NCBI RefSeq assembly: GCF_001613805.1
Contig: NZ_LPVY01000005.1
Coordinates: 1-64,000, forward strand
Source: Thalassospira lucentensis
Lineage (GTDB): Bacteria > Pseudomonadota > Alphaproteobacteria > Rhodospirillales > Thalassospiraceae
DNA length: 64,000 bases
Reading direction: 5' to 3'
Of this stretch, positions 41,510-44,287 are shown in pieces. Within the stretch, counting starts at the first letter, position 1. The number at the start of each line of letters is the position of its first letter. The notes beneath the pieces are model-generated. The model was not told the origin of the DNA. It saw only the letters and a program-made list of their open reading frames with translations, and made no database searches. A program made the position numbers and the translations under genes.

Positions 41510-42784
41510 ATGCAATTCCTCAGTCTTTTGCGTCAGGCACCCCGCCCGTTGGCATTCGGGGCGCTTCATAGTTTTGGCTCGTCATTCGGCCAGACCTTTC
41601 TGGTCGCCCTTTTCGTTCCGTTCATTGGCGCCAGCCTTTCGATCAATGAAACCGAGTTTGCCAATATTTATGCCGGGATCACCATCGCAAGTGCGTTGTG
41701 CCTGCCTTTCATCGGGCGATTGATCGACCGCATTGATATGCTGCGCTATAGCCTGGCGACCATGGTGTTGCTGACCATGGGCTGCCTTGTGATTGCCTTG
41801 GCTCAATCGGTCTGGATGCTGATCGTGGCCTTGTTCATTCTGCGTCTGGCCGGGCAGGGATTAATGAGCCATGTCAGCATGACTGGCATTGCGCGCTATT
41901 TTGATCGCAGCCGCGGACGTGCCCTCGCCATTGCAAGCTTCGGCTTTCCGTTGGCAGAGGCAATCATGCCCGTAACGCTGCTGGCACTTATCGCCGGATT
42001 TGGCTGGCGGGCGACCTATGCAGGGGCCGGTATTTTTATCGTGGTGATCCTGATGCCGATTGCGATCCTGCTGATCCGTGATAATGCAAAATTCCGCGAG
42101 GCACCGGGCAAAACAGAAAAAGATGGCAAAGCCGCCAGTACTGATCACAGCGCCGATCAGGACGCATCCCCCGCAAGCAGTCATCCACGCCTGTTCCGGT
42201 CACGCTATATCTGGTTCTGCATGCCGATGCTGGCCGCCCCGCCGCTGGTGATGACCGCCCTGTTTTTCCATCAGGGATCGATTTCAGCCAGCAAAGATAT
42301 CGACCTTGCCTGGTTTGCCGCCGGTTTTACGGTTTTTGCCATTACATCCGTGATCGGGGCGTTTGGTAGCGGTCCGCTGATTGACAGCCATACTGCACGA
42401 AAGCTGTTCCCCTATCACCTGATCCCGGCCATCGGGGCGGTGTCGCTACTGGCGATCACTGAAACACCGGTCATGATCCCGGTTTATATGGGGATGCTGG
42501 GCGTCACCACCGGCTTTGCCACAACATTGCGCACCGCGATTATCCCGGAACTGGTGCCACTTAGTGAAATCGGCGCAGTCCGCAGCACATTGACCGCGGT
42601 CATGGTTCTGGCATCTGCGATTGGACCTGCGATCTATGGCTGGATGTTTGCCGCCAATATCGATATCGCGACGACGCTTTGGATCACCATCGTCGCAATG
42701 GCGGTTGTGTCAATGCTGTCCTGGATGTCGGAACGGCCCGGATTTTATATCCCGCCAGGCGTCGCACGCCAAACCGGCGAATGA
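41510..42784 (+). CDS. MFS transporter
   Basis: 424 residues with about 12 hydrophobic segments split by a charged central loop (about 195-225, PGKTEKDGKAASTDHSADQD). The motif-A-like region is FIGRLIDRIDMLRYSLATMV. It resembles oxalate/formate-antiporter-like MFS proteins only in general form; I cannot name a substrate. The start is the ATG at 41510; a TTG at 41501 is also open, and neither has a strong ribosome site. Its own terminator is not obvious. Confidence 0.85.
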   Translation: MQFLSLLRQAPRPLAFGALHSFGSSFGQTFLVALFVPFIGASLSINETEFANIYAGITIASALCLPFIGRLIDRIDMLRYSLATMVLLTMGCLVIALAQSVWMLIVALFILRLAGQGLMSHVSMTGIARYFDRSRGRALAIASFGFPLAEAIMPVTLLALIAGFGWRATYAGAGIFIVVILMPIAILLIRDNAKFREAPGKTEKDGKAASTDHSADQDASPASSHPRLFRSRYIWFCMPMLAAPPLVMTALFFHQGSISASKDIDLAWFAAGFTVFAITSVIGAFGSGPLIDSHTARKLFPYHLIPAIGAVSLLAITETPVMIPVYMGMLGVTTGFATTLRTAIIPELVPLSEIGAVRSTLTAVMVLASAIGPAIYGWMFAANIDIATTLWITIVAMAVVSMLSWMSERPGFYIPPGVARQTGE

Positions 42785-42821: not shown

Positions 42822-42858
42822 CAAAAAAATGGCCCGGAGCTCAAAAGAGCCCGGGCCA
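42822..42858 (-). terminator. Terminator of the 60-aa gene / sRNA candidate
   Basis: On the - strand TGGCCCGGGCTC pairs with its complement around AAAA/TTTT (one bulged base), and the stem is followed by seven T (42823-42829 on the + strand is AAAAAAA). It ends the transcript that carries the 60-aa ORF and the two hairpins. Confidence 0.85.
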
Positions 42859-42960
42859 GTCGGGAAAACAGCGTCGTCTAGGGAGGAAGACGCTAGAAAA
42901 AACGCGGTAGTCCATCGCGGGAGCGTCGTTTGGGGAGGAAGATCAAACGTCGCTCGACCA
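42823..42960 (-). ncRNA. Candidate 3'-UTR sRNA with two CCUCC-loop hairpins (CcsR/Cuckoo-like)
   Basis: Downstream of the 60-aa ORF, the transcript contains hairpin A (42921-42955), a 12-bp stem with one mismatch whose loop reads AUCUUCCUCCC in RNA sense, and hairpin B (42870-42894), a perfect 6-bp stem AGCGUC/GACGCU whose loop contains UUCCUCCC. Both share UCUUCCUCCC. A strong terminator follows. Exposed CCUCC in loops is the hallmark of the alphaproteobacterial CcsR/Cuckoo sRNAs, which in Rhodobacter are cut from the 3' part of an mRNA with a small upstream ORF. The layout here is the same; processing and function are inferred. Confidence 0.65.
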
Positions 42961-42972
42961 CGAGGTCATCAA

Positions 42973-43155
42973 TTAGGCAGCACCGCCAACGGTGCCAGCC
43001 GGATGCTTGATGTCGGCGGACTTGTCAGAGCCTTTGAACAGGCTGCGGAACAGGCTGCCGATATATTCAGCGCGAAGCTGTTGGCCTTTGCGCACGCCAG
43101 CTTCAATCTCGCTGGTTTTGATGTTCAGCTTGGTGATGTCAGCATAAGTGGTCAT
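42973..43155 (-). CDS. Small 60-residue protein, unknown function
   Basis: Starts MTTYADITKLNIKTSEIE with an excellent Shine-Dalgarno AAAGGAGG 6 bases upstream. The middle segment GQQLRAEYIGSLFRSLFKG is an amphipathic, basic helix; the tail is Gly/Ala-rich. No Cys, no signal peptide. I cannot place it in a family with certainty; it lacks the Arg-rich signature of DUF1127 proteins that precede CcsR sRNAs in Rhodobacter. The strong ribosome site and the long structured 3' UTR suggest a highly expressed, probably stress-related, dual-function transcript. Confidence 0.75.
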   Translation of the reverse strand: MTTYADITKLNIKTSEIEAGVRKGQQLRAEYIGSLFRSLFKGSDKSADIKHPAGTVGGAA

Positions 43156-43185
43156 GGCAGACCTCCTTTGAGAATTTGGTTCATT

Positions 43186-43200: not shown

Positions 43201-43291
43201 GTTTGATGAACCCAATCTAATTTCCTTTACGGCAGAAGAGAATTACCTCAATATGCACATTACTTGTGAATATGCGTCATAAATAGGAAAC

Positions 43292-44287
43292 ATGCCGATG
43301 GATCGCGCCGCAGAAATGGAAATCTTTGTCCATGCCGTTGAAGAAGGCAGCTTTTCAGCTGCTGCACGGACCATGCGTCTGTCACCTTCGGCGGTTTCAA
43401 AATACATTTCGCGCCTTGAAGACAGGCTTGGCGCGCGTCTTTTGATGCGCACCACCCGCCAGCTTAGCCTGACCGAGGAAGGCCGTGCCTTTTACGAGCG
43501 CGCACGCACGATCCTAAACGAGATCGAAGAAGCCGAAGAAGTCGTAACCCAGCTTTACGCGGCCCCGCGCGGAACGTTGCGTATCAACGCATCGGTGGCC
43601 TTCACCAAGTATCAGGTCGTGCCGCTGATTCCGGAATTTCTGGCGCGTTATCCCGATGTAAGGATTGAATTGACGCTGGATGATAAATTCACCGATCTGG
43701 TCAACGATGGTTACGATCTGGCGATTCGCCTGTCCGCGCTTGAAGATTCATCCCTGATCGCACGCAAATATGCGGTCAACCGCCGCATGATCGTCGCATC
43801 GCCGGAATATCTGGAAAAGAACGGTATCCCCCGCAAGCCGCAGGAACTTGAAAACCACGACTGTCTGCATCTGTCATCGCGCGAAAGCTTTAACGACTGG
43901 CATTTCGACACACCCGAAGGCCATGTTTCATTCCGCGCACAGGGCAGCTTTTCCGCCAATGACGGCGACGCATTGCACGAAGCGGTGGTCGCGGGCCTTG
44001 GCATGGCGAGACTGGCAGAGTACCTCGTGCATGAAGATATCCGGGCAGGTCGCCTGACGCCGGTTCTGACGGAATATGTACACGATCTGGCATGGATTTC
44101 GGCGGTGTATCCACACAAACGCCACCTGTCACCAAAGGTCCGTGCCTTTGTGGACTTCCTGGCCGAAAAATTCACCCCCATCCCGCCATGGGAGCTCGGC
44201 CTGCGCGATGCGCGTTCGGTCCGCAAACCCGAAGCCGTTGCCGAAACCAAGGCCATTGCAGCCCCGGTAACCGAGCAGCAAGGCTAG
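43292..44287 (+). CDS. LysR family regulator
   Basis: 331 residues: N-terminal HTH (MEIFVHAVEEGSFSAAARTM, then LSPSAVSKYISRLEDRLG) and a LysR substrate-binding domain (about 95-300, RGTLRINASVAFTKYQVVPL). A C-terminal tail of about 30 residues (KPEAVAETKAIAAPVTEQQG) is extra. It resembles the CrgA/DmlR-type group that has no fixed partner operon. It is divergent from the 60-aa gene, with 136 bases between, and could control it. Confidence 0.92.
   Translation: MPMDRAAEMEIFVHAVEEGSFSAAARTMRLSPSAVSKYISRLEDRLGARLLMRTTRQLSLTEEGRAFYERARTILNEIEEAEEVVTQLYAAPRGTLRINASVAFTKYQVVPLIPEFLARYPDVRIELTLDDKFTDLVNDGYDLAIRLSALEDSSLIARKYAVNRRMIVASPEYLEKNGIPRKPQELENHDCLHLSSRESFNDWHFDTPEGHVSFRAQGSFSANDGDALHEAVVAGLGMARLAEYLVHEDIRAGRLTPVLTEYVHDLAWISAVYPHKRHLSPKVRAFVDFLAEKFTPIPPWELGLRDARSVRKPEAVAETKAIAAPVTEQQG

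Follow-up and report, generated by a model that had tools for sequence, protein, structure and literature searches.

Downstream of a 60-aa open reading frame (ORF) of Thalassospira lucentensis, which belongs to a marine genus, the minus strand of the window (the whole stretch of 64,000 nucleotides that was analysed) carries two hairpins with the motif UUCCUCCC, followed by an intrinsic terminator (Table 1). Many genes for nutrient uptake have ribosome sites that these loops match; the tail is therefore probably a small RNA by which such uptake is reduced. With moderate confidence, we interpret the locus as the source of a dual transcript, in which the mRNA of a 60-aa protein would bear in its 3′ UTR a trans-acting anti-Shine-Dalgarno sRNA lowering nutrient uptake. 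The original prediction, which gave no strand, consisted of the ORF with a strong ribosome site, two hairpins sharing a loop motif and a terminator. All these elements were found at the locus; the divergent gene of a LysR-type regulator, unmentioned there, is a further part of it.

Table 1. Coordinates of the locus features within the window and the observations behind each assignment
Feature	Position	Strand	Basis or conservation
60-aa ORF (P0001), RSP_7527-like small protein	42973..43155 (including the stop codon)	-	kept in 28/28 Thalassospira genomes
Ribosome site AAAGGAGGT of the 60-aa ORF	43161..43169	-	AGGAGGTC unchanged across 27 different upstream sequences
Hairpin 1, loop AUCUUCCUCCC	42915..42963	-	fold and congener comparison
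U-rich spacer separating hairpins 1 and 2 (candidate site for RNase E)	42896..42903	-	suggested by how UdsC and CcsR are matured
Hairpin 2, stem UAGCGUC/GACGCUG, loop UUCCUCCCUAGAC	42869..42895	-	fold and congener comparison
Linker TTTTCCCGAC, hairpin 2 to terminator	42859..42868	-	no letter varies among 18 different sequences; one has an additional C
Intrinsic terminator	42823..42858	-	single-bulge stem 42858-42830 and T-run 42829-42823; compensatory changes
Predicted minimal mature sRNA, ~80 nt (hairpin 2 and terminator)	42823..42902	-	putative; region kept in 28/28 genomes read
Conserved intergenic block, presumed LysR/ORF control region	43211..43270	-	TTCA.AAGTAATGTGCATATTGAG invariant in 27 distinct sequences
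Divergent LysR-type regulator gene	43292..44287	+	adjacent in 28/28 congeners read, 92-100% identity

The two copies of TCTTCCTCCC are located at 42942-42933 in hairpin 1 and at 42890-42881 in hairpin 2. The conserved hairpin 2 fold pairs the first UC of this sequence; the minimum-energy fold of the window itself closes the hairpin differently and leaves four of the five letters of CCUCC unpaired. A transporter-like gene (MFS by eye) converges on the feature and ends at 42784. A consensus scan of the intergenic region found no sigma-70-type promoter, and a simple terminator scan picked hairpin 2 and missed the terminator (one found, 0.8 expected). Reading the structure on the plus strand was rejected: the stem has no T-run there, and the GGGAGGAAG loops are followed by no start codon at ribosome-site spacing.

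The tail is more than would be expected from its composition. Its 153 nt fold at -62.8 kcal/mol, compared with -38.5 kcal/mol in shuffled sequences (z -7.0; 0/200 shuffles as good). Two copies of TTCCTCCC occurred in none of 2000 dinucleotide shuffles of the tail, and at least one copy in 39. Six copies of TCTTCCTCCC are present in the genome, only the two of the locus sitting in such hairpins, and among the 87 genomic TTCCTCCC sites these two come third and seventh when fold energies are ranked under the constraint that the motif stays unpaired.

The locus was compared in 28 of 29 Thalassospira genomes (all except G480), which gave 27 distinct tails and 20 distinct proteins. Conservation of the two loops in relatives, on which the original prediction had been made to depend, holds in the genus: hairpin 2 with UUCCUCCC was kept in all 28 genomes and hairpin 1 with CCTCCCCAA, the CCUCC version, in 22, the remaining six having a hairpin at this place without CCUCC. 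Minimum-energy folding left the CCUCC of loop 1 fully open in 22/22 cases. That of hairpin 2 was fully open in 17 of the 28, had four of five letters open in five genomes (the clade of the window) and three of five in the six genomes that also have no CCUCC in loop 1.

From the alignments only, RNAalifold returned hairpin 1 (minus part of the outer stem of a fuller model), hairpin 2 and the terminator. An alignment of 19 sequences yielded 14 pairs in hairpin 1, and one of 18 sequences yielded 19 pairs across hairpin 2 and the terminator. Covariation supports the terminator, in which four pairs have double changes, and, less clearly, hairpin 1. Pairing is found in 88.1% of the cells of the fuller hairpin-1 model and drops to 41-51% when the model is slid; 17 cells, counted among mutually related sequences, changed on both sides compared with 8.7 in shuffles (0/500 as high). 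No excess over shuffles was found in the number of hairpin-1 pairs with changes on both sides (5 versus 4.2; 187/500) or in "further types" (441/500), and the model slid by +3 gave 19 double-change cells and six pairs, against 17 cells and five pairs in the structure. Hairpin 2 showed no compensatory change, five of its seven pairs never varying and two varying on one side, all of them paired; the test is silent on this hairpin because its stem barely varies.

The complement of the loops is GGGAGGAA. At 51 of the 87 TTCCTCCC sites the opposite strand has a start codon 3-14 nt after GGGAGGAA and an ORF of at least 40 aa, some of these probably by chance. When an ATG 3-9 nt further on was required, the genome contained 44 GGGAGGAA sites and 13 AGGAGGAA sites. 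The target set comprised the 39 of these 44 sites with an ORF of at least 60 aa. The controls numbered 35: 11 came from the 13 AGGAGGAA sites, and 24 were the distinct ORFs left at the first 30 among 66 AAGGAGA sites once five short ORFs and one duplicate had been dropped. Uptake binding proteins, assigned by Pfam, accounted for 20 of the 39 GGGAGGAA genes (18 of the 20 checked individually) and for two of the 35 controls (L305 and L328), which were classified from the 25 of 52 Pfam families listed and otherwise by eye from the sequence starts (Fisher p 2.3e-5). Against the AGGAGGAA controls alone (1/11), p was 0.016. The 20 proteins belonged to DctP (eight), SBP_bac_1 (five), Peripla_BP_4 (three), Peripla_BP_6 (two), NMT1_3 (one) and ABC_sub_bind (one); among the predicted targets, the substrate-binding proteins of ABC and TRAP transporters predominate.

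The possibility that GGGAGGAA is a weaker ribosome site than AGGAGGAA was rejected, the two pairing with the 16S tail at -10.9 and -10.2 kcal/mol, respectively. Pairing beyond the 8-mer was not favoured, a GA continuation being present at 2/44 GGGAGGAA sites. The median density of GGGAGGAA-ATG sites was 7.7 per Mb in the 28 Thalassospira genomes and 4.9 in 72 other genomes of the order (p 1.2e-6, a value that ignores relatedness and composition), and in single genomes of these 72 the number of sites reached 63.

The arrangement suggests the following course of events. One transcript would start between the ORF and the divergent LysR gene, in a region common to both. The 60-aa RSP_7527-like protein would be encoded in the 5′ part of this transcript, and the 3′ UTR would form the trans-acting anti-Shine-Dalgarno sRNA. 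The latter may act within the mRNA or, more likely, as a separate RNA of ~80 nt (hairpin 2 and terminator) or ~140 nt (both hairpins) released by cleavage in the U-rich spacer. The UUCCUCCC of each loop would then pair with GGGAGGAA in the ribosome site of a target and block translation. The RNA would lower nutrient uptake because its predicted targets are mainly ABC and TRAP substrate-binding proteins, and the LysR regulator, when it raises the transcript, would turn uptake down.

Stable hairpins before a terminator protect mRNAs, and the two hairpins could act only in cis, as 3′-end protection or on the ribosome site of their own transcript, with the protein as the sole product that matters. 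The ORF is intact in 28/28 genomes, and the six congeners whose hairpin 1 is devoid of CCUCC, as if only the fold counted there, also have the hairpin 2 CCUCC partly paired; both points agree with a cis role. However, a stabiliser requires no fixed loop, whereas UUCCUCCC of hairpin 2 was kept in all 28 genomes. The predicted pairing of the loops with their own ribosome site (-8.7 and -10.4 kcal/mol) is also weaker than with GGGAGGAA in one made-up context (-15.1 and -16.8 kcal/mol). We consider an exclusively cis-acting role unlikely, albeit the best of the alternatives, and retain the trans-acting sRNA as the preferred reading.

The original prediction held that the upstream protein does not look like a DUF1127 protein, and we agree. 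A Pfam search of the ORF yielded nothing credible, DUF6061 being the only match (E 0.089), and no DUF1127. Among NCBIfam models the best was the RSP_7527 family (NF046098), with 22.8 bits, below the curated cut-off of 26; three congener versions of the protein scored 16.1-20.7 bits against the same model. The protein thus appears to be a weak, sub-threshold relative of RSP_7527. AlphaFold2 predicted helices at residues 4-8 and 14-41, mainly the latter, with low confidence (mean pLDDT 62.5), and a search of solved structures gave a best E of 0.72. Close relatives were found at 22 named loci, 21 in Thalassospira and one in a Rhodospirillales MAG. In a search of 100 related genomes, matches occurred only in the 28 of the genus and in none of the 72 other genomes of the order, and among 385 genomes of the class only weak matches (E 0.003-0.05) were obtained beyond the genus.

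In the same 385 Alphaproteobacteria the RSP_7527 family model gave 100 matches in 77 genomes (E up to 0.01). At least 22 of the 100 lie beside a LysR homologue, defined as a match to the gene of the window with E up to 1e-75, no more than five candidates being scored per genome. Of these, 21 are divergent, including the present locus, and one is convergent; the spacing is 134-259 bp in 19 of the 21 divergent pairs. The pairing of LysR and RSP_7527-type genes is old, since many matches across the class sit beside a LysR homologue, and the position of the ORF fits the RSP_7527 family although its score falls short. By eye, palindromes of the TTGC...GCAA kind were seen near small ORFs, mostly upstream (L065, L068, L069, L070, L075, L080 and L081); they recall the VtlR box CAATGCAGCCATGCA given for Brucella (PMC12595884).

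Conservation of the loops, in turn, is almost confined to the genus Thalassospira. Outside it, 18 of the 20 divergent LysR/RSP_7527 pairs were compared (all except G403 and the second match of G185). A clear CCUCC hairpin loop was present in one (L265) and a partial case in another (L266), the tails of L251, L253 and L258 have CCTCC in a stem, unclear or not folded, and 13/18 pairs contain no CCTCC within 230 nt. The tail of L265 (G406:C30, minus strand) reads CGUCU-(CGUUUCCUCCCUCCUCCCACCC)-AGACG, with two CCUCC in the loop. An RNA model of the tail, R1, recovered the window itself (E 8.5e-24); in the 32 sources searched no other match was better than E 0.14, and seven sources with other loop candidates gave no match.

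The tail had also been likened to CcsR1-4, which form one family with cuckoo and ar14. The 3′-UTR anti-Shine-Dalgarno anatomy behind this likeness stood, whereas membership of the family did not. As at the CcsR1-4/cuckoo loci with CIN1, several hairpins with anti-Shine-Dalgarno loops (here the two with UUCCUCCC) and a terminator lie in the 3′ part of a small-ORF transcript (PMC10253847, PMC3927594). Here, however, the partner is not DUF1127, the loops carry UUCCUCCC and not CCUCCUCCC, and a LysR gene is the neighbour. No Rfam model matched the locus at its gathering threshold; the best match below it was ar14 (RF02344, NfeR1 family), with 24.3 bits against 58.8 (E 0.0053, 181 bases searched), and its alignment spans the full model, positions 1-123, with both loops on the CCUCCUCCC loops. 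This alignment, and the fact that CcsR-type loci likewise join a small ORF to loop hairpins (PMC10253847), would suit a true but diverged member of the ar14/cuckoo family (CcsR, NfeR1) whose DUF1127 partner was replaced. We regard such descent as improbable: the score is far under the cut-off, loop and ORF differ as described, a larger and less sensitive search of four whole congener loci gave no ar14 up to E 3, and a hairpin with CCUCC may be easily reinvented. Seven DUF1127/CIN1 matches in the genome were set aside as a counterpart; CCTCC follows three of them (L087, L088 and L090), and no CcsR-like pair of loop hairpins was seen by eye.

In its host gene the locus resembles UdsC of Rhodobacter sphaeroides, which is matured from the RSP_7527 3′ UTR and requires RNase E (PMC9779115, PMC8625941); the promoter is RpoHII-dependent (PMC9779115). 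Both have an RSP_7527-type small ORF, a 3′ UTR ending in a terminator and a short RNA (67 nt for UdsC, ~80 nt predicted here). Unlike its UdsC counterpart, the protein scores below the family cut-off, and CCUCC is absent from the main text of the paper on UdsC (PMC9779115).

No ar15 was present among the Rfam matches up to E 2, in a model library that may contain no ar15 entry. NfeR1 and AbcR are sRNA genes not known to include an ORF, unlike the locus described here. NfeR1 (ar14) and AbcR1/2 (ar15) of Sinorhizobium share with it more than one copy of an anti-Shine-Dalgarno seed in loops or single strands, mostly transport-protein targets (predicted in the present case) and a link to a LysR regulator (LsrB in Sinorhizobium), and these RNAs have been described to repress uptake-type genes through similar seeds (PMC10746234, PMC8844928). 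Their LysR partner is LsrB/VtlR. Judged by its sequence, the locus is like NfeR1, AbcR and CcsR in seed and like UdsC in host gene, and could not be assigned to any of these groups. A limited literature search, covering few subscription journals, found no such sRNA for Thalassospira.

Another RNA of the genome shares the seed. An alphaR8 (suhB/mmgR) sRNA was found at G000:C12:44060-44134 (L173 277-351, plus strand), with 50.8 bits against an Rfam cut-off of 41, and it carries UUUCCUCCCU; a second, sub-threshold match (25.5 bits versus 41) lies at L180 326-246 (minus strand). The locus itself reached 17.4 bits with RF00519 (alphaR8), below the gathering threshold of 41. As in the tail, the seed UUUCCUCCCU of alphaR8 RNAs (MmgR, SisA-D) is followed by a terminator, and Caulobacter SisA is described to repress transporter genes, those of TonB-dependent receptors, through it; unlike here, that seed is single-stranded and there is no ORF (PMC12559287). 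Since the alphaR8 RNA of the genome has this seed too, the target set may be shared or may not be this RNA's own. What the target bias points to is a role for UUCCUCCC-type seeds in this genome, not their exclusive use by this RNA. The GGGAGGAA regulon could even be that of the Rfam-grade alphaR8, with the 3′ UTR as a minor sibling or as bait for a G/A-rich sponge RNA of the kind of CrfA, which sponges alphaR8 in Caulobacter (PMC12559287), but the two loops, the congener conservation and a region separately linked to LysR speak for an independent function of this 3′ UTR, and we judge the sibling or bait reading very unlikely.

Three further sites were observed. At L191 (G000:C20:79338, plus strand), a hairpin loop UUUUCCUCCCCUCC and a terminator come just after an open frame ending MISSERH, which looks like a further 3′-UTR RNA of this type. 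L190 (G000:C20:57802, minus strand), the strongest hairpin among the 87 TTCCTCCC sites, lies between the genes of an ABC binding protein and a MalF-like permease (both by eye). An RSP_7527 paralogue at C20:52021 scored 48 bits, over the family cut-off, and its terminator loop (L063/L124, G000:C20:52176-51930, minus strand) is UUCCUCCC in the clade of the window and some other congeners. In the paralogue tails of 21 of 29 congener loci, TTCCTCCC was present in nine and TCCTCCC in one more, the rest having neither. Since only 9/21 tails have it, TTCCTCCC after the paralogue is no general rule. A third, weak RSP_7527 match is located at C20:273730.

CcaF1 reportedly binds CcsR. By analogy, one inherited unit controlling nutrient uptake might combine an anti-Shine-Dalgarno RNA with a LysR regulator and a microprotein of RSP_7527/DUF1127 type, a unit in which the protein would bind its own 3′-UTR RNA and assist in its maturation or delivery and of which Thalassospira would have the compact form, at one site; we offer this as a doubtful extension. 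A parallel to such joint action of regulator, small protein and sRNA comes from Brucella, in which VtlR, of the LysR type, increases AbcR2 as well as three DUF1127 proteins (PMC12595884). The small protein may also have its own job; DUF1127 proteins are reported to act through protein contacts (PMC12501420).

If the preferred reading of a dual transcript is correct, a coding partner and a regulator would be added to the small set of 3′-UTR anti-Shine-Dalgarno RNAs, and the widespread LysR/microprotein pair would gain a testable link to post-transcriptional control of transporters. It would also suggest that one cell contains unrelated RNAs with a common seed, UUCCUCCC, and a common class of targets, and how such sibling RNAs divide the work would become directly testable.
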